Assembly (NCBI GenBank): GCA_012523305.1
Contig: JAAYIV010000134.1
Span: 1 to 36,195 of the forward strand
Direction of reading: 5' to 3'
DNA: 36,195 nt
Source of the DNA: Spirochaetales bacterium
GTDB lineage: Bacteria > Spirochaetota > Spirochaetia > Sphaerochaetales > Sphaerochaetaceae
Shown in pieces: positions 17,386 to 30,856 of the stretch; positions within the stretch are counted from its first letter, which is position 1, and every line of letters begins with the position of its first letter. Made by a program: the position numbers and the translations under genes. The notes beneath the pieces were generated by a model, which worked only from the letters and a program-made list of their open reading frames with translations, ran no database searches and was not told the DNA's origin.

Positions 17386-18963
17386 TCACTCCTTAGTTTC
17401 CAACAACGGGTGGTGGCACGCCACAAAGTGGTCCTTTTCCAATTCACGCCATTCAGGGACTACCTGTGTACAAATTTCAGTGCAATATCGACACCGAGTG
17501 TGGAATTTGCACCCTTTTGGTGGTTTGATCGGACTGGGGATATCCCCTTCGAGCAAAACCGCTTCTCCGCGTTTGTTTACGTCCGTAGTTGGAATCGCTG
17601 CCAACAATGCTTCGGTATACGGGTGCAACGGTCGTTCGAAGATTCTCTTTGAATCAGCCAGTTCCATAAGATTTCCCAAATACATGACTCCGATACGGTC
17701 GCTGATGTACTTAACTACCGCAAGGTCATGAGAGATAAACAAATAGGTTAATTTTGCCTTTTCCTTTAAGTCTCTCAATAGATTTATTATCTGGGCTTGT
17801 ATCGAAACATCCAAAGCGGAAACAGCCTCGTCACACACGATAAATTGGGGATTGAGGGCTAAAGACCGAGCGATACCGATTCGCTGCCTCTGTCCTCCGG
17901 AGAACTGGTGGGGATAGCGGTGAATCATATACGAAGACAACCCGCAGTCTTCCATGACCTTCATCACATATTCCTGCATCAACTCGCCATCTTCCTTGAA
18001 GAATCGGTGGGCTAACAGACCTTCACCAATAATCTGGCCAACTGTCATCCTTGGATTCAATGAAGAATACGGATCTTGGAAAATGAGTTGAAGATCCTTG
18101 CGAAGCAACCTCATCTCATCGTACTTCAACCGGGAAAGATCGATTCCCGTATCCCGTTGGGCATCGTAATGTTCAAATTCTTCGTTTCCTTTATAATGAG
18201 CTCTCATCTCATCCAACGATGTATGAACGAGCGTCATTTTTTTATCAAGTTCCGCAATCTTTTTCTTTACTTGTTTCTGAGTCGACCTGATTTCCTCTAG
18301 TTTTTTCTGTTGAGATTCAATGGGCTTGCCTTTTTTGCTTGCAAGACGAATTTTCCCTTCCACATCCGTGCCATCAAGCTCCAAATCTTTAATCTTCTCA
18401 TCCAGTTGATGGCGTTCGAGTGCCAGATCGTACCACTTCAAATAAGCTTTGGAGATTTCTTCCATGTCATCGGCGACAATGAATCCACCGATGATCTGCA
18501 CTATGTCCAAATACGCATCTTTTAACCGTTTTTCAGCTGCGGTATATTCATTCTGTGCATCATAAAGCTTGTAACGCGTGTCTTGTTCCGCACCTGATTC
18601 AATTCGTTTTTCCAAATCCTCAAATACGGCTTTCAACTCATCTTTTTTCCGTTGCAATTCCTTGAGGCTGTCTTTTCGTTTTGAAAGAGTCAAAAGAGTC
18701 TCTTTAACATAGGAGGGGGCAAGGTCTTCCAATAACCTTCCATAATACATTGTCTTCCCGTCAGTTTGGTGATAAAGCTGTAACAAAACCCTACCGAATG
18801 TCGACTTCCCACAACCGCTTTCACCTACCAATCCGAGGGTCTCCCCATCAAAAATCTCAACGTCGACGCCATCGAGTGCCTTAACAGATAACCGTTTGTT
18901 CTTGAGAGGGAAATATTGTTTCAGATTTGAAATCTTGAATAATACGTTCTTATCACTTTGCAT
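17386..18963 (-). CDS. oppF: OppF-type ATPase with large coiled-coil insert
   Basis: This is a peptide-ABC ATPase of 525 residues; the family norm is about 320. Walker A is GESGCGKST (47-55), but the Q-loop IFQDPYSSLNPRMT starts only at 294. The usual gap is about 45 residues, and here it is about 240. Residues about 83-280 are an insert rich in Lys, Glu and Leu with heptad-like runs (SLKELQRKKDELKAVFEDLEK and KKLEEIRSTQKQVKKKIAELD), predicted to form a long antiparallel coiled coil. The rest is normal: FSGGQRQ (354-360), Walker B FIVCDEA and SHD histidine 412. A C-terminal oligo_HPY region has cysteines 485, 491, 494 and 498, as in Fe-S-binding Dpp/Opp ATPases. It overlaps OppD by 11 bases. 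Confidence 0.93.
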   Translation of the reverse strand: MQSDKNVLFKISNLKQYFPLKNKRLSVKALDGVDVEIFDGETLGLVGESGCGKSTFGRVLLQLYHQTDGKTMYYGRLLEDLAPSYVKETLLTLSKRKDSLKELQRKKDELKAVFEDLEKRIESGAEQDTRYKLYDAQNEYTAAEKRLKDAYLDIVQIIGGFIVADDMEEISKAYLKWYDLALERHQLDEKIKDLELDGTDVEGKIRLASKKGKPIESQQKKLEEIRSTQKQVKKKIAELDKKMTLVHTSLDEMRAHYKGNEEFEHYDAQRDTGIDLSRLKYDEMRLLRKDLQLIFQDPYSSLNPRMTVGQIIGEGLLAHRFFKEDGELMQEYVMKVMEDCGLSSYMIHRYPHQFSGGQRQRIGIARSLALNPQFIVCDEAVSALDVSIQAQIINLLRDLKEKAKLTYLFISHDLAVVKYISDRIGVMYLGNLMELADSKRIFERPLHPYTEALLAAIPTTDVNKRGEAVLLEGDIPSPIKPPKGCKFHTRCRYCTEICTQVVPEWRELEKDHFVACHHPLLETKE

Positions 18964-19942
18964 TGCGCACCGCCTTGTCCGGATAATGGCACCTGATCAA
19001 ATGGTGTTCATTGACAGGCAATAATTCTGGAAGTTCTTTTCTGCATTTATCTGTTGCGTACTTACACCGTGGAGCAAATTTACATCCCGGCGGCAGATCC
19101 AAGGGATGAGGAACCACGCCCGGTATGACTTCCAACTTGTCACCCGTTTCTGTTTCCAGTCTTGGAATTGATAGCATCAAACCTTCGGTATAAGGGTGTG
19201 AGAATTGACCGTAGGTAAAGATAGTATCTACAGGAGCCATCTCCACCACTTCCCCGCAATACATAACGGCCACATCATCTGCCATTTGATTGATCACTCC
19301 GAGATCATGGGTGATGAATAAGATAGAAGTACCTTTCTCTTTTTTAAGATCATTCATTAATTTTAAGATCTGGGCTTGTATCGTCACATCCAATGCGGTG
19401 GTCGGTTCATCTGCAATCAATAAATCGGGCTTGCATGCCAGAGCCATGGCTATCATGACACGTTGTCGCATCCCTCCTGAGAGTTGATGCGGATATTGTT
19501 TCGCTACTTGTTCCGGATTAGGAATTTTCACATCGCTTAACATTCTGATGGATTCTTTAGCAGCTTGTTTCTTATCCATGTCCTGGTGGACCATGAATGC
19601 TTCGCTTATCTGTTTCTCAACCGTGAAAACCGGATTCAAACTTGTCATGGGTTCTTGGAAAATAACCGAGATGGCATTTCCACGTATCGTATAAAGCTCT
19701 TTGGTGGTCAGAGAAGTAAGTTCTTGACCTTTAAATTCGATGCTACCTTCGGCAATGTATCCGTTACCGTCGAGCAATTTGAGAATACTCATGGCTGAAA
19801 CAGATTTACCGCAACCGCTTTCGCCCACGACCCCGAGGGTTTTCCCGGGATCTACAGCATACGATACTCCGTTAACAGCCTTAACAATACCACGTCGAGT
19901 GGTAAAATATGTATGAAGGTTCTTTATTTCTAAAAGCGCCAC
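18953..19942 (-). CDS. oppD: OppD-type peptide transporter ATPase
   Basis: This is the first ATPase of the peptide importer, about 329 residues and normal in length. Walker A is GESGCGKSV, Q-loop VIFQEPMTSLNPVFTV, signature QLSGGMRQRVMIAMALA, Walker B LLIADEPTTALDVTIQAQ and switch THDLGV. The C-terminal oligo_HPY domain carries CKFAPRCKYATDKC. The frame opens at an ATG at 19963, inside OppC, but TAGGAGG lies downstream of it and seven bases before a GTG at 19942, so the GTG is taken as start. It pairs with OppF, whose nucleotide-binding domain carries the insert. The dimer is therefore asymmetric. Confidence 0.94.
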   Translation of the reverse strand: MALLEIKNLHTYFTTRRGIVKAVNGVSYAVDPGKTLGVVGESGCGKSVSAMSILKLLDGNGYIAEGSIEFKGQELTSLTTKELYTIRGNAISVIFQEPMTSLNPVFTVEKQISEAFMVHQDMDKKQAAKESIRMLSDVKIPNPEQVAKQYPHQLSGGMRQRVMIAMALACKPDLLIADEPTTALDVTIQAQILKLMNDLKKEKGTSILFITHDLGVINQMADDVAVMYCGEVVEMAPVDTIFTYGQFSHPYTEGLMLSIPRLETETGDKLEVIPGVVPHPLDLPPGCKFAPRCKYATDKCRKELPELLPVNEHHLIRCHYPDKAVRNAK

Positions 19943-19952
19943 CGATGGCCTC

Positions 19953-21749
19953 CTACCTGTCATTCGATTTAGGGTCTATGGCATCGCGCATTCCGTCTCC
20001 TGCCATGTTTATGCTGATGGTACAAAGACTCAAGGCAATCGATGGGAACACCCATCTCCACCAGTACTGCGACATAACCGTAGAGTCGTTACACCCGTAT
20101 AGCATATTCCCCCATGTAGCATTCGGTTCGTTAACTCCAAATCCAAGATAGCTGAGCGATGATTCATACAACATGCACAAAGCAAAACTCAAAGTAAGGT
20201 TTACGAGAACAACTGTGATTACATTAGGTAATATATGCTTGAAAATAATTTTTACTTCCTTGATTCCCATTGCCTTTGCCGCCGTAACAAACTCTTGCTC
20301 ACGGGCAGCTAGTATCTGGCCGCGCACAAGACGTGCAAGGCTAGGCCATGACAGCAAACCCAAGATGACCATGATCATGGCAATTCTTCCGGTTTCTGAA
20401 ATCTTGCTTCCGATAATAGCTGAAAGAATCATTGCCAATGGCAAGAATGGAATCGCATTCACCACTTCCGCAAGTCGCATCAGAAGGATATCTATCCTTC
20501 CTCCGTAGTATCCGGAGAATGAACCGATGATGATCCCGATTATTCCGGCAATAACAACCGCGATCGCACCGATTGTCAGTGTGATTCGGCCACCGGAAAC
20601 CAGGCGCGTGAACAAATCCCGACCATATTGATCGGTTCCCATCATATACCCTTTCAAGCCCCAGGTATGGATATTGCCCTTACTGTCGATCGCATAGTTC
20701 TGGAAATAGTCAGAAGACACATCAACTATATCGTTCAACTTCGGGGCATTAGCTTGCTTGAAATTATTCGATCCCCACGACTCGACACTCCCGTCATCCA
20801 ACAGAACGGTAAAGTGACCTCTTCCGGCTGTGATATGAACTGTCCTGCCCTGGATATGCTCGGGGATTTCCAAAATATTGAAGTTGTCACTCCCCCATAC
20901 ATGCACCACACCATCGTTTGTCAGAGCAGCTGTGGCCTTGTCAGTCGTCGCTATGTCAACGACTCTGCCTTGGACTTCCTTGGGGATATAGGAAAATGGA
21001 GTTTCTCGTTGGCTGAGCACCACGACGTTGCGATCTTTTGTAATACCTAAAGCGGTGGTCGTATTGAGAACAACCTTATCCAATGTACCCTGGGCATCAC
21101 CCACGGTGATGTTAACGATGTTCAGGTTGCCCCACACATACATTTTCCCACTATTATCAAGGGCTATCGATACTTGGTGCCCGGCAATTACTTGTTTGAT
21201 GCTTGCCATTGATACTTCCATCGGTACCGGACTCAGCATCAACCGATTGTTTCCCCAAGTAAATACCTGACCTTTATCATTTAGTGCGAGCACATGATCC
21301 AGCCCAGCCGAAACTTGGACCACGCGACCCATATTTTTTGGCATTTCCTGGAGTTTCGCAGATAAGGTCCCCCATTGATAGACGTTCCCATCGTTATCGA
21401 CTCCGACTCCGAACACCGATCCACCGTCAATCTGGGCGGTATTTCCTTTCATTTCTTTAGGAGCTCTCATGAATGACTGTGAAGGTCTTGTGTTTTGTTG
21501 GGTGGGGTCTTGATATTGCAAATCCAAGGGGTAGAAAATCGGAAGTATGAAACATGCAAGGAAAATTGCCACGAAGACATATACTCCAAGCATCGCAGTC
21601 TTTTTTTCACGGAAATTGCGCAGCATGGTCCTGTAAGGACTCTGCATCTGTTCTTCTTCAAGTAAAGATAATTTTGTGTGTTTTTGTCCAAGGAAGAGCA
21701 TGCGCAGCACATCGCCAAAAGTTGATCCATGGTTCTTTTTGTTGCTCAT
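19953..21749 (-). CDS. oppC: OppC-type permease with RCC1-like propeller insert
   Basis: This permease has 598 residues against about 300 for normal OppC. Residues 1-50 are a cytoplasmic lead and 52-72 the first membrane helix. Residues about 105-366 then form an insert with seven repeats of about 40 residues, each with a G-x-(V/I/M)-x-x-WG strand: W126, W165, W206, a degenerate one near 245, W285, W325 and W363. This is the RCC1-type seven-bladed propeller pattern. After it the normal sequence resumes with GTDQYGRDLFTRLVSGGRITL, then membrane helices and the EAA loop (AAKAMGIKEVKIIFKHILPN). Topology puts the propeller on the outer (periplasmic) side, beside the binding protein. The start overlaps nothing and lies 10 bases after OppB. 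Confidence 0.95.
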   Translation of the reverse strand: MSNKKNHGSTFGDVLRMLFLGQKHTKLSLLEEEQMQSPYRTMLRNFREKKTAMLGVYVFVAIFLACFILPIFYPLDLQYQDPTQQNTRPSQSFMRAPKEMKGNTAQIDGGSVFGVGVDNDGNVYQWGTLSAKLQEMPKNMGRVVQVSAGLDHVLALNDKGQVFTWGNNRLMLSPVPMEVSMASIKQVIAGHQVSIALDNSGKMYVWGNLNIVNITVGDAQGTLDKVVLNTTTALGITKDRNVVVLSQRETPFSYIPKEVQGRVVDIATTDKATAALTNDGVVHVWGSDNFNILEIPEHIQGRTVHITAGRGHFTVLLDDGSVESWGSNNFKQANAPKLNDIVDVSSDYFQNYAIDSKGNIHTWGLKGYMMGTDQYGRDLFTRLVSGGRITLTIGAIAVVIAGIIGIIIGSFSGYYGGRIDILLMRLAEVVNAIPFLPLAMILSAIIGSKISETGRIAMIMVILGLLSWPSLARLVRGQILAAREQEFVTAAKAMGIKEVKIIFKHILPNVITVVLVNLTLSFALCMLYESSLSYLGFGVNEPNATWGNMLYGCNDSTVMSQYWWRWVFPSIALSLCTISINMAGDGMRDAIDPKSNDR

Positions 21750-21759
21750 CGTTCTCTCC

Positions 21760-22743
21760 TCAATCCAATTTCACACGTGGATCAGCAAGTCCATATGACA
21801 GATCCATCAACAGGTTTCCAACCAGAGCCAGTACGAGGTAGAACATTACCATCGCAAGAGAAACCGAGAAGTCCTGTTGGTTCAGGGCATCGATGATGAC
21901 CTTACCCATTCCGTTCCATAAGAATGTCCGTTCGATTACCACGGATCCACTGAAGATACTTATGAACCAACCGGTCATGATCGTGATAAAAGGTATCAAT
22001 GCATTACGGAAAGCATGGGAATAAATGACTACTTTTTCACTCAAACCTTTCGCTCTGGCTGTTCTGATATAATCCATGCGCAACGCCTCGATCATCGTTG
22101 CCCTCACATAACGGGTCAATCCGCCTAAAGATGTGAAGACCATAACTATCAACGGTAATGCCATATGGTATAACTTATCCAAGAACATCCGTGTCGCAGT
22201 TCCTTCCATTCCTGGAGTCTGGACACCGCTGATCGGGAATATCGGTATCTTTACGGCAAATAGGAATATGAACAGCAATGCGATTACAAAGAATGGCAGG
22301 CTATAACCAATTATAGTCACCACTTGAACGATACTGTCATAACGACTGCCTCTTCGTACAGCAGTCGAAATACCGAGCGGAATCGTGATCAAGAATACCG
22401 GTATCAATGACCATACATTTAACATGATGGTATTTTTCATCGGTACGCCAATCATATTTCTTACGGGCATCTTATATGTAATGGAATATCCAAAATCACC
22501 TTGCAAGGTGTTGAATAACCATGTGAAATACTGAATGGGAATTGGTTTGTCTAGACCAAGTTTCTTCACAGCCTCTTGGTACCTAGCTTCATATTCCTCC
22601 GGCTTCATGCTCTGTTTGTTACCCTCAAGCATGAGGCGGGCAGGATCGCCTGGAACTGATTTATATAAGGCGAAGATGAGCACCGAAGCGACTAAAAACA
22701 CCACTACGATGTACACCAAGCGTTTAAGAACATATCTTAGCAC
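21760..22743 (-). CDS. oppB: OppB-type permease
   Basis: This is the first permease of the importer, 327 residues with six membrane helices. It has the family's N-terminal helix (LRYVLKRLVYIVVVFLVAS), the SVPGDPARLML motif, a periplasmic loop (YFTWLFNTLQGDFGYSITYKMPV), the EAA loop (RTARAKGLSEKVVIYSHAFRN) and the ending GLADPRVKLD. A longer frame opens at 22800, inside the intergenic hairpin. The GTG at 22743 is chosen because GGAGG lies about ten bases before it and the product then aligns with the family. Length and motifs are normal, in contrast to OppC. Confidence 0.93.
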   Translation of the reverse strand: MLRYVLKRLVYIVVVFLVASVLIFALYKSVPGDPARLMLEGNKQSMKPEEYEARYQEAVKKLGLDKPIPIQYFTWLFNTLQGDFGYSITYKMPVRNMIGVPMKNTIMLNVWSLIPVFLITIPLGISTAVRRGSRYDSIVQVVTIIGYSLPFFVIALLFIFLFAVKIPIFPISGVQTPGMEGTATRMFLDKLYHMALPLIVMVFTSLGGLTRYVRATMIEALRMDYIRTARAKGLSEKVVIYSHAFRNALIPFITIMTGWFISIFSGSVVIERTFLWNGMGKVIIDALNQQDFSVSLAMVMFYLVLALVGNLLMDLSYGLADPRVKLD

Positions 22744-22781
22744 GGACGCTATCCCTCCAAGGAGAATGTGTCTAAAGCAAC

Positions 22782-22815
22782 CCATAGGGCAAGCGGTCAA
22801 ACCGTTGCCCTATGG
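22782..22815 (-). promoter_or_regulatory. Hairpin between oppA and oppB
   Basis: The arms 22782-22792 and 22805-22815 (11 pairs) are extended inward by CGGT/ACCG past a bulged G, with a three-base loop. No T-run follows. Such hairpins after the binding-protein gene commonly stabilise its mRNA or let only part of transcription pass into the permease genes. Confidence 0.65.
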
Positions 22816-22856: not shown

Positions 22857-24707
22857 TTACTTCGTAACACTCGCGCGAACGATCGCGTAGCGCCAATCCC
22901 AAGTGGATGACGATTCGTATCCAACGATGCGAGGATTGAAGAAGTCATGATACATGTCGGAATACAATGGGATATCCGGCAACAATTGGTTCCAGCGTTT
23001 CTCAAAGCGGATCCACTTTTCTACCCAACCAGCGAGATCGGTAGGATCGGTTTTCTTCATATCCAAAGCGATGGATTCGAGTTCTTTATCTGCGATGAAG
23101 TTGGTGTTGTAGGTTCCGAAATACTCAGGATCGGTGCTGTAATAGTACCAGTAAGCCTGAGTGGTTGCAAAACCGGTTCCGAGGTTGAACATACCGTATA
23201 CGGGCTTTTCAATGTTCTCTTTGTAGAGGTGATCAAGCAACACGGCGAAGTCAACGGTGGTACCGTTAATTTGCATGCCAATTTTCTTGACTTCAGGAAC
23301 GAGCATAGCAGAGATAAGATCGGAAACCGGGTTGTTTGCAGTATTTGCCCATTCGATTACGAGAGGCATCAACGTACCGTCGACCATCTTGTAACGAAGC
23401 TCATCAACACCCTTCTGGAAGGCTTTGCCGTCTTTGTTGAGAGTCCAGCCGCCATCAACCAATTCCTGCTCAGCCTTCTGGAGGTTGTAAGCATAGGCAT
23501 TGAGTTCCTGGTCGAGCTTAGCAGCATTTTCCTTGTACTCCCACATGGAAGCGCCATAGTACCCATTCACAACGATACCGAAACCGCCGGTGTATTGGCG
23601 AGCGAATTCGTTGCGGTCAAGGCTATAGGCAATTGCACGACGGACATGGTCGAACTGAGTCGGTCCGAAGTCACAAGCAAATGCGATCTTTCCATACCCA
23701 TAGCGGGGATAGAAACTGTAATTGACCAAACCTTCATCATAAAGGTCAAGTCCGCGGTTAATCTGTACGCCGCCGCTGATACCCTGCAGCATGTCGATTG
23801 CACCGGTGCGCAATTCATCCATCTGGGTTGCGGTATTTGTCAATTTGACAATCAAGCGATAGATCGAACCTTTGGCGCCGTCATATTCACCGAGGAATCG
23901 TGGGTTAAGCACAACGCTTGCGGTGCTGTCGGCGGGATTGTAGTTCTCAAACTGGTAAGGACCTGAAGTAACCGTTGGATTGTAGCGATATCCGGTTCCG
24001 GGAGTAAGGATGGTCTTGCGGAGCAAGTCTGCATTGTATGCCGCAGAAAGGGTTGCGCCCTTGCCAGAATCGGTGATATCTACTCCAGGAGCCAATACGT
24101 GCATAGGAATCGGTCCGACCGATACCAACGACAAGTCGAAGAAGTAAGGAAGTTCTTCTGCTTTGATGGTGATCGAGAAGGAATAGTCTCCGAGCAGCCT
24201 GATGCCGCTGAATGAGCGGGTCTTGCCACTGTGGAAATCTTCGAATCCAACATACTCAGGACCGGTACCGTATTGGGCACCAAGTTCTACAGCTTCGGGA
24301 GATGCGGCATAAAGGATGCTAAATACATAATCCTTTGCCGTAATCTTCGAACCGTCGTTGTAGGTGAGGTTCTGGGCAATGTTGAATGTATAGGTTTTTG
24401 TCCCATCAGCATTCACTACTGCTGTGTGCGAGGGTATTGCAATCGGGTTGATGATATAACGACCTTCCTTGGTCCACACAACCGTTGCATAACCACCCAT
24501 CAACTCTTTGAGGTAAGCATTGGTAGCACTATTTGTCCAGCCGTCAAAGAAATCTCCGTTTAATTGAGTAGATGAACCCAAAATAATCTGTGACTTCTCA
24601 ACTGGTGCTGCTGCAGCTGCTGGGGCCGCTTCCGCTCCGCCGCCGGCGAAAACCGACCCGATAGCGACTGCGACGATCAGAAACAGAACAAGCATTCTTT
24701 TTCTCAT
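22857..24707 (-). CDS. oppA: OppA-type peptide-binding protein
   Basis: This 616-residue solute-binding protein of SBP family 5 is the first gene of the operon. A signal peptide (MRKRMLVLFLIVAVAIGSVFA) is followed by GGGAEAAPAAAAAP and has no lipobox cysteine, so it may be a soluble periplasmic protein; that junction is typical of Sphaerochaeta-like spirochaetes. Family features include YTFNIAQNLTYNDGSKITAKDYVFS, SGPYQFENYNPA and RRAIAYSLDRNEFA. The frame opens two codons earlier, but AAGGAG is eight bases from the ATG at 24707 and only two from the other, which decides the start. It probably docks against the RCC1 propeller of OppC. Confidence 0.93.
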   Translation of the reverse strand: MRKRMLVLFLIVAVAIGSVFAGGGAEAAPAAAAAPVEKSQIILGSSTQLNGDFFDGWTNSATNAYLKELMGGYATVVWTKEGRYIINPIAIPSHTAVVNADGTKTYTFNIAQNLTYNDGSKITAKDYVFSILYAASPEAVELGAQYGTGPEYVGFEDFHSGKTRSFSGIRLLGDYSFSITIKAEELPYFFDLSLVSVGPIPMHVLAPGVDITDSGKGATLSAAYNADLLRKTILTPGTGYRYNPTVTSGPYQFENYNPADSTASVVLNPRFLGEYDGAKGSIYRLIVKLTNTATQMDELRTGAIDMLQGISGGVQINRGLDLYDEGLVNYSFYPRYGYGKIAFACDFGPTQFDHVRRAIAYSLDRNEFARQYTGGFGIVVNGYYGASMWEYKENAAKLDQELNAYAYNLQKAEQELVDGGWTLNKDGKAFQKGVDELRYKMVDGTLMPLVIEWANTANNPVSDLISAMLVPEVKKIGMQINGTTVDFAVLLDHLYKENIEKPVYGMFNLGTGFATTQAYWYYYSTDPEYFGTYNTNFIADKELESIALDMKKTDPTDLAGWVEKWIRFEKRWNQLLPDIPLYSDMYHDFFNPRIVGYESSSTWDWRYAIVRASVTK

Positions 24708-24788
24708 ACGCATGTCTCCTTGTGTATGTAATTCCGGTCCATTATTTTCTTCCGACCGAAGTGTTGGTTGCGGAACCGGATTTTCCTA

Positions 24789-24817
24789 AGTATAGAGGAT
24801 TTGTCGCGTACTGTCAA
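24789..24817 (-). promoter_or_regulatory. oppA: Promoter of the opp operon
   Basis: Minus-strand -35 TTGACA (24812-24817) and -10 TATACT (24789-24794) are 17 bases apart, a near-consensus housekeeping promoter. It gives a 5' leader of about 75 bases that can fold locally (CTTC-GGTCG-GAAG). Confidence 0.8.
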
Positions 24818-27815: not shown

Positions 27816-28988
27816 ATGAAACGTAAAACGACACTTATTATCATCGTCTCAATCATCGTGTTGGTCCTTGCTTTGATAGGCTACAACTTCATGAGATACT
27901 TAGGGGACAACCTTCATGAGGTCGTGCAACGAGGAAATGCATTGTTCGTACGTCTGTCGATTCTAAATGGTGCCGATGTAAATGAGTGCATCCCCGACAA
28001 AATGCGGGGACCCGAAAATGATACGACTCCCCTGATACTTGCCATACAACACAATGCCAATGAAAAAGTGATTCGGCATCTGTTGGAAGCCGGAGCCGAC
28101 TTGAACTTTATATATGACAATGGGAGTTCAGCATTGTTCGAAGCTGCCGAAAGCAACTCCCATCCAGAAGTAATTTCCCTGTTAGTTGAGGCTGGGGCCA
28201 GTGTACATGACTCTTTCACAAGGATAGATGCCCGGGAAGGAACTGCCTTAATGTATGCGATTTTGTATAACTCACCCGAGGTGGTCCAAGCATTGATCGA
28301 TGCCGGCTCAGATGTGAACAAAAAAAATCGTGGAGGCTTCACACCCCTTCATGCTGCCATTATGAGCAGTTCAAATGCTCGAATTGTTCAGGCGTTGCTG
28401 CAAGCCGGAGCCGATGTCAGCTGGCGTACTCCTGCAGGAGAGACCCCGTTGCATATCGTAGTCACTGACGATTTGGCATTCATCAACGATGAAGAAAGCG
28501 ATGTGCCAGAAATTGTCTCACTGTTCATCGAAGCAGGAGTCGACATACACGCCAAAACTAAAAATGGGAAAACCATGTTGCATTACCTAGCAACTAATCG
28601 GGACATATCGGTCATAGAGAAGGTGATCGCCATGGTCGGATCTTCAATCATGAAAGACCCGGCCATCGATGCTTCCGAATATCTTCTGGAAGCAGCCCGG
28701 GCGAATGATAATCCTGATTCAATCCAATTCTTCATTGACATGGGAGCTGATATCAATTCACGTGACGGAACACAGCGCACGGCCTTGATTGTCGCTACCG
28801 AGGAAAATGAAATTCTCCGCTCGTATCATCTTGAAGAAGGATTCACCGACATCATCGGGGTTCTCATTGCAGCAGGCAGCGACATTACGGCCAGGGACGA
28901 CAGGGGAATGACCGCCTACGACCACCTCAAGAAACGCTTCAATGATCAGGTGGATACAGATCCGGTATGGTCGAAATTGAAACTCTAG
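27816..28988 (+). CDS. Membrane-anchored ankyrin-repeat protein
   Basis: This 390-residue protein has an N-terminal membrane helix (residues 6-26, LIIIVSIIVLVLALIGYNFM) with no cleavage site. About eight to nine ankyrin-type repeats follow in an extracytoplasmic or cytoplasmic solenoid. Good repeats read TPLILAIQHNANEKVIRHLLEAGAD, TALMYAILYNSPEVVQALIDAGSDV and GFTPLHAAIMSSSNARIVQALLQAGAD. The segment 265-300 is degenerate. It is a protein-protein interaction module with no catalytic domain. GGAG precedes the ATG. Single gene, no evident operon partner. Confidence 0.9.
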   Translation: MKRKTTLIIIVSIIVLVLALIGYNFMRYLGDNLHEVVQRGNALFVRLSILNGADVNECIPDKMRGPENDTTPLILAIQHNANEKVIRHLLEAGADLNFIYDNGSSALFEAAESNSHPEVISLLVEAGASVHDSFTRIDAREGTALMYAILYNSPEVVQALIDAGSDVNKKNRGGFTPLHAAIMSSSNARIVQALLQAGADVSWRTPAGETPLHIVVTDDLAFINDEESDVPEIVSLFIEAGVDIHAKTKNGKTMLHYLATNRDISVIEKVIAMVGSSIMKDPAIDASEYLLEAARANDNPDSIQFFIDMGADINSRDGTQRTALIVATEENEILRSYHLEEGFTDIIGVLIAAGSDITARDDRGMTAYDHLKKRFNDQVDTDPVWSKLKL

Positions 28989-29704: not shown

Positions 29705-30856
29705 ATGACTGATCCAATTAGATTCTCAACGCTTCTGGACTTTTGCCTGGGATTGGCCGATCCTAAAACAAATGCTGCACGTTATGAAAAAGCCAAACCG
29801 CTGATTGCGTCAGCCACGGCTGTAGAAGTCATGTATCTGGTCGATGCAATTATTGAAGCGGTTCCCGATATCGAGGATGCCAAACCAATCGTTACCCGTC
29901 TTCTCAATGTGTTTGGCAACGTGCTGACATCGAACGGATACGTGCCTTCCAAGGATATTCCTTATATCGCGACACTGGTCGAAGAGAATGCGGCAATTGT
30001 CAAAACACTCGACGCGATGAAGTCCGAAGTGACCGCAATCAACAAAGATATCTCAGATAAAACCAGTTGGGATAATATTCGCAAAGGCTTTGATACGCTG
30101 TATGCATGTACACAACACTACACGGACAAGGAGAATATTCTTTTCCCATTTGTCGAACGTTTCATACCGAAATCCGGATGTTTGAAATTGATGTGGTCGA
30201 TTCATGACGATATTCGCCTTGGATTGAAACGAATGGACACGTTATTACATCAGAACGAAATTACTTTAGAAAGCTTCAATTCCCTGGTGGGACAGTTGTT
30301 CTTTGATATCCGGTCAATGGTGTTCAGGGAAGAACGGGTATTGTTGGCAGCGATGGAGGATGTGTTAAATCCGGACCAATTGGAGGAACTGAAACGCTCG
30401 CAATTCGCTCATGGCCAAGTATCATATTCCGGTTTTGCTCAAACAGAGGAAACGATACACCTTGTCACCGGATCTCCGACAGCTACGCAACTGATCCAAA
30501 TATTCAATCACTTGCCTGTCGATATCACACTCGTGGATAAGTATGATCGCGTGGTATATTTCAACACCCCGGAGCATAGGATTTTCCCCAGGACTGCCGC
30601 TGTCGTCGGCAGGACCGTGCAAAACTGCCATCCCCCGAAAAGTGTGCATATCGTGAATAACATTCTTGAAGCTTTTAGGGAAAAGAGGGAAACCAAAGCA
30701 GAATTTTACATCACGATGAAAGGATCATATATCGTAATTACCTATTTTGCCCTGTATGATCAAACAGGTGAGTACGATGGAACGCTAGAGGTATCCCAGG
30801 ACATTACCCATTTAAAGACACTTGAAGGTGAGAAACGGTTGCTTGATTGGCATTAG
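29705..30856 (+). CDS. Hemerythrin-like and PAS protein (DUF438 type)
   Basis: This 383-residue protein has three parts. Residues 1-75 resemble the DUF1858/DUF438 N-terminal domain. Residues about 95-235 are hemerythrin-like, with HYTDKENILFPFVERF, WSIHDDIR and REERVLLAAMEDVL supplying carboxylate and histidine ligands. Residues about 255-378 are a PAS domain of the PAS_10 type, with VDITLVDKYDRVVYFN, RTVQNCHPPKSVHIVNNIL and GTLEVSQDITHL. The known DUF438 family lacks a DNA-binding or kinase output, as here. A sensor or scavenger of O2, NO or redox state is likely, probably with the cupin encoded just upstream. Confidence 0.9.
   Translation: MTDPIRFSTLLDFCLGLADPKTNAARYEKAKPLIASATAVEVMYLVDAIIEAVPDIEDAKPIVTRLLNVFGNVLTSNGYVPSKDIPYIATLVEENAAIVKTLDAMKSEVTAINKDISDKTSWDNIRKGFDTLYACTQHYTDKENILFPFVERFIPKSGCLKLMWSIHDDIRLGLKRMDTLLHQNEITLESFNSLVGQLFFDIRSMVFREERVLLAAMEDVLNPDQLEELKRSQFAHGQVSYSGFAQTEETIHLVTGSPTATQLIQIFNHLPVDITLVDKYDRVVYFNTPEHRIFPRTAAVVGRTVQNCHPPKSVHIVNNILEAFREKRETKAEFYITMKGSYIVITYFALYDQTGEYDGTLEVSQDITHLKTLEGEKRLLDWH

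Follow-up and report, generated by a model that had tools for sequence, protein, structure and literature searches.

A predicted BLIP-II-like propeller within the OppC permease of an oppABCDF operon in Sphaerochaetaceae

Gene organization and the OppC reading frame

The window, that is, the whole stretch of 36,195 nucleotides analysed here, corresponds to contig C64 of a draft genome of 2.56 Mb, assembled in 187 contigs, and the window genes oppA, oppB, oppC, oppD and oppF lie contiguously on the minus strand, with gaps of 56, 10, -11 and -11 bases. The features of the operon are:

24789..24817, minus strand: promoter-like TTGACA-17-TATACT upstream of oppA (11/12), a consensus match only, in a region where such sites are not in excess overall
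22857..24713, minus strand: OppA, family-5 solute-binding protein with a signal peptide and no lipobox cysteine (Pfam, sequence)
21760..22800, minus strand: OppB permease, which keeps the stretch that aligns with the scoop of E. coli DppB (Pfam, alignment)
19953..21749, minus strand: OppC-type permease of 598 aa, carrying the propeller insert on its periplasmic side (ORF, Pfam, NCBIfam)
18953..19963, minus strand: OppD ATPase, with an 11-base overlap with oppC (Pfam, coordinates)
17386..18963, minus strand: OppF ATPase of 525 aa with a helical insert (Pfam, model)

OppC presents both OppC_N and BPD_transp_1, and the operon encodes a family-5 solute-binding protein (SBP), OppB, OppC and the oligo_HPY ATPases OppD and OppF; by its sequence, it is a predicted Opp/Dpp-type (family-5) peptide ABC importer. 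The other genomes with the propeller present the same oppABCDF order as far as their contigs reach, and their SBPs have signal peptides without a lipobox cysteine. The absence of a lipid anchor on OppA was considered as a reason for a docking domain and dropped, because the uninserted operons of L123, L124 and L131 lack this cysteine too. Relatives of the window operon that are without the propeller (g24; L125:7886-9754 and L127–L130) encode a lipoprotein SBP with the common N-terminal motif NGDFYxGWTNS. Elsewhere in the window, the plus strand encodes a 390-aa ankyrin-repeat protein (27816-28988; PF00023, E 1.5e-41) and a protein with hemerythrin-like and PAS domains (29705-30856), a possible oxygen or redox sensor.

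The oppC gene is a single intact frame of 598 codons with zero internal stops, and is divided into three parts:

21483..21641, minus strand: OppC_N region and TM1, residues 37-89 (Pfam PF12911, E 7.4e-10; hydropathy peak at 54-72)
20646..21479, minus strand: insert, residues ~91-368, seven-bladed BLIP-II/RCC1-type propeller with short linkers (Pfam, AlphaFold model, Foldseek, alignment)
19956..20639, minus strand: permease core, residues 371-598, which starts at GTDQYGRDLF, contains BPD_transp_1 and extends to the C-terminus (Pfam, NCBIfam, structure matches)

The junction of the insert was placed by eye from the alignment with uninserted relatives. Pfam locates BPD_transp_1 at residues 405-594 and RCC1-type repeats at residues ~103-365, and the nearest NCBIfam model, Opp4C (NF045476), scores 308 bits, under its cut-off of 350. 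The WG dipeptides begin at residues 126, 165, 206, 285, 325 and 363, and a degenerate blade lies near residues 242-245, exactly where an earlier note made from the letters of this DNA had placed six intact strands and one degenerate one. That note had also located the repeats between the first membrane helix and GTDQYGRDLF, which is borne out and corresponds to the first periplasmic loop in the Opp/Dpp family. The search with RCC1 profiles that it proposed gave a significant match to RCC1_2 (83.4 bits against a cut-off of 22, E 6.8e-24); WD40_RLD also matched (E 2.4e-34), although its 119.7 bits fall under its own curated cut-off of 150.

Fold and conservation of the insert

The AlphaFold model, built from an alignment of only five orthologues, presents 21 strands arranged as seven three-stranded blades in residues 104-365. 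Its pLDDT ranges from 70 to 92 per ten-residue block in residues 100-360, and the membrane part is modelled with low confidence (pLDDT <50). The blades, delimited by the AlphaFold strands, are:

21369..21440, minus strand: blade 1 (104-127, W126)
21252..21323, minus strand: blade 2 (143-166, W165)
21129..21200, minus strand: blade 3 (184-207, W206)
21018..21083, minus strand: blade 4 (223-244), degenerate, without WG
20892..20963, minus strand: blade 5 (263-286, W285)
20772..20843, minus strand: blade 6 (303-326, W325)
20655..20729, minus strand: blade 7 (341-365, W363), directly joined to the permease core

OppC is thus predicted to contain a complete, closed seven-bladed propeller, and the structure without one that was named beforehand as contradicting this reading was not obtained. 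In Foldseek, the top match was BLIP-II (3qi0_A; E 6.3e-20, TM 0.86 by target length, rmsd 2.1 Å, 26% identity), followed by UVR8 and then RCC1.

The insert sequence is visible in ten of the ~139 Sphaerochaetaceae genomes, a count that includes four close relatives from the contig scan (G021, G121, G094 and G026). These genomes represent six genera, and eight of them, the window included, carry the gene at full length. In an eleventh genome (G098), only the permease core is visible before the contig ends. Across 393 evenly sampled Spirochaetota genomes, the propeller OppC was not found outside this lineage, the three matches at E<=1e-75 all being known lineage members. The propeller OppC is inherited within a small group of related bacteria; within the family, its distribution is patchy (11/139), so that operon loss or lateral transfer is possible.

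The full-length orthologues are 70-92% identical, and the insert is complete in every one of them. Among the orthologue pairs compared, identity is 56-89% for the insert and 90-98% for the permease core; in the pairs with measurable dS, dN/dS is ~0.04-0.28 for the insert and ~0.05-0.08 for the core. Judged by these ratios, the insert is under purifying selection, constrained yet freer to evolve than the core. The β1-β2 turns have a mean conservation of 0.93, with 67% of positions invariant, while the β2-β3 turns on the opposite face have 0.60 and 21%, a difference that points to one functional face. This conserved turn face comprises residues 110-112, 149-151, 190-192, 309-311 and 348-351, and LDH, GHQ and RGH are among its conserved residues. 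This gap may be partly structural, since the β1-β2 turns of RCC1-type repeats hold structurally required Gly and His.

The earlier note had raised the concern of an assembly artefact. The source genome is a draft, and an assembly or gene-prediction error could in principle have fused an RCC1 gene to oppC; this explanation can be practically dismissed, because the same architecture occurs in ten independently assembled genomes. The propeller within OppC is a real, conserved arrangement, and no prior description of RCC1 together with OppC or with Sphaerochaeta was found in the literature searched. At E<=1e-8, the search of the family gave no close stand-alone donor, the one exception being a frame of 2124 aa that matched at 26%, and plasmid matches to the propeller were 23-30% identical, none of them annotated as permease. 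The source genome encodes other RCC1-repeat proteins (G000:C66:5352-6329; G000:C111:61450-62016 and 68265-69062; frames of 489-606 aa), which are not close to the OppC insert.

The insertion site and the OppF insert

Uninserted relatives read PS-xxxx-GTD at the site (L047 reads ...NNPPSWVHPFGTDKYGRD), and in the window the propeller splits PS (89-90) from GTD (371-373). The adjoining ends of a closed propeller would suit insertion into a loop. The same loop holds apparently helical inserts of ~240 aa in L068, L069, L070 and L072; beta-rich inserts of ~220 aa in L056, L058 and L079; a PQQ-like insert in L055 (PQQ_2, E 7.7e-8); and coiled-coil-like inserts in L059 and L061. Inserts without a Pfam match were characterised by reading the sequence. 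As these large inserts are unrelated and occupy the same site in other spirochaetes, the TM1-TM2 loop of OppC is an insertion hot spot, and the earlier statement that OppC proteins have about 300 residues with a short loop there fails as a universal rule in this phylum.

The source genome has a second large OppC (L068:1524-3134, G000:C166), a 537-aa frame with one of the ~240-residue apparently helical inserts. The coiled-coil-like inserts lie at L059:160-2166 (G151), whose insert also seems to contain an additional membrane segment, and at L061:1498-2793 (G473). The L055 gene (760-2193) is the same as L126:7799-9232 (G489). Its insert is another propeller-type repeat in the same Opp permease loop, but of an unrelated and shorter repeat type; as a widespread alternative to the propeller it was rejected, since one genome out of the 26 in its family carries it.

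The ATPase OppF also carries an insert:

18199..18687, minus strand: OppF insert of four long helices, residues 93-255, interrupting the ATPase domain before the Q-loop (model, Pfam)

Pfam splits the ATPase domain around this insert, OppF has ~180 extra residues, and the pLDDT of the insert in the predicted structure is mostly 70-95. In the fold search, no solved fold was found for it, as only ATPase-type matches passed E 0.001. Within Sphaerochaetaceae, full-span OppF matches occur only in propeller genomes (nine, plus one ended by the contig), and the other OppF-type proteins among the matches listed aligned only from about residue 267 on. The OppC and OppF inserts count as one correlated event rather than repeated independent ones, because both belong to one operon lineage, and their co-occurrence may reflect common descent and not a functional link.

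Possible role and comparison with known systems

In E. coli DppABCDF, DppA caps DppB and DppC, DppC pairs with DppF, and a scoop of DppB between TM1 and TM2 enters the cleft of DppA (PMC12136057). The window OppC has acquired a complete BLIP-II-like propeller in its first periplasmic loop. On the Dpp geometry, the propeller would stand in the periplasm by the substrate entrance, since pseudo-symmetry with the DppB scoop should place the TM1-TM2 loop of OppC opposite the scoop at that entrance. The propeller could then use its conserved β1-β2 turn face as a rigid platform to bind another protein, and would hold or orient OppA from the side of OppC while the scoop kept in OppB enters the OppA cleft. 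The helical insert of OppF, which is expected beneath OppC, may be a matching cytoplasmic elaboration. We propose, tentatively and with a probability of about 0.42 for the whole, that the propeller is a periplasmic docking platform beside the substrate entrance, with OppA as its likeliest partner. Purifying selection, the conserved turn face, the BLIP-II-like fold, the kept scoop and the co-occurrence of the OppF insert count for docking; against it, most spirochaete peptide importers work without such a domain. Substitution of the OppB scoop by the propeller was also considered and rejected, because OppB still has its scoop region.

Docking or sensing, both suggested in the earlier note, would fit the modelled geometry, and the partner may be other than OppA. 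It is conceivable, if doubtful, that the propeller docks another periplasmic protein, such as a peptidase, another binding protein or a cell-wall enzyme, and so brings a peptide source beside the importer: BLIP-II, the best structural match, binds secreted class A beta-lactamases, and the conserved turn face is silent on partner identity. However, among the window genes tested, the operon neighbourhoods share no further gene beyond oppABCDF, and BLIP-II's own target is unlikely, given that the aromatic residue of its third turn position is not kept. A ligand sensor or gate, in which a small molecule, a peptide or a wall fragment modulates transport allosterically, we consider distinctly improbable. 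Propellers often bind ligands, and the LDH, GHQ and RGH residues line one face, but no known ligand-binding motif was identified in the propeller, and RCC1/BLIP-II members of known function are mainly protein binders.

The variety of helical, beta-rich, PQQ-like and coiled-coil inserts in other spirochaete OppC proteins would also agree with a loop that merely tolerates large insertions, the propeller being a stable, functionally minor spacer or stabiliser. This reading is rather improbable, since the insert is complete in all full-length orthologues, is under purifying selection and has one face far more conserved than the other. Docking of OppA could also be part of an unlikely, broader scheme of two-sided elaboration, in which the propeller would capture or select loaded OppA and the OppF helical bundle would receive a cytoplasmic regulator; import would then be conditional, and the OppC loop a general plug-in site for docking or sensing modules.

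The periplasmic loops of type I peptide importers are regarded as small, a single scoop making contact with the binding protein. The propeller OppC is a real arrangement within this well-known importer class, for which we infer a docking role. Together, the conserved propeller and the unrelated inserts at the same loop would make this loop an evolvable port for extra domains, and the propeller offers a defined, testable construct with which to ask how docking of the binding protein is tuned by accessory domains.

BLIP-II of Streptomyces exfoliatus (PDB 1jtd, 3qi0) also has seven three-stranded blades of ~39-40 residues each, and matches the OppC propeller by sequence at E 2.2e-17. It has been described as a tight protein binder and a seven-bladed propeller whose blades have only three antiparallel strands (PMC6121496), which matches the OppC model. 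The OppC propeller forms part of a membrane permease, whereas BLIP-II is secreted and acts as a free inhibitor. Its β1-β2 turns read GYF/GNY/GAW/GVY/GIF/GEW, against GSV/GLD/GHQ/NTTT/TDK/GRG/YF in OppC, and in this sequence comparison the aromatic residue at the third position of most BLIP-II turns is absent from the OppC propeller. We take these aromatics to be the beta-lactamase contact residues of BLIP-II, and beta-lactamase inhibition is thus not expected of the OppC propeller.

Eukaryotic RCC1, HERC2 and UVR8 belong to the same RCC1 repeat superfamily (Pfam, Foldseek), but have longer chains per seven blades and TM values of 0.36-0.58, below that of BLIP-II. The blades of eukaryotic RCC1, a Ran exchange factor, are four-stranded and longer, while the OppC model has three strands and ~40 residues per blade; for a bacterial domain predicted to be periplasmic, Ran would not be expected as a partner. 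The earlier note had found the placement striking on the ground that RCC1-type propellers are best known from eukaryotic nuclear proteins. This argument is weak, because most members of the RCC1/BLIP-II group are bacterial (PMC9218822) and the nearest fold is that of the secreted bacterial BLIP-II.

The window operon has the same subunits as E. coli DppABCDF and OppABCDF (PDB 8z1v-8z21). The OppC core matches E. coli OppC (8z21_B, E 1.3e-49) and DppC, and the alignment of OppB with DppB extends through the scoop region; among families, Opp4C is the best match of the permease core, split by the insert. In contrast to the solved E. coli OppC and DppC chains of 302 and 300 aa, the window OppC has ~278 residues inserted between TM1 and GTD, and the window OppF has ~180 additional residues. 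Whereas the scoop of DppB is a short helical motif, the insert of OppC is a propeller by prediction.
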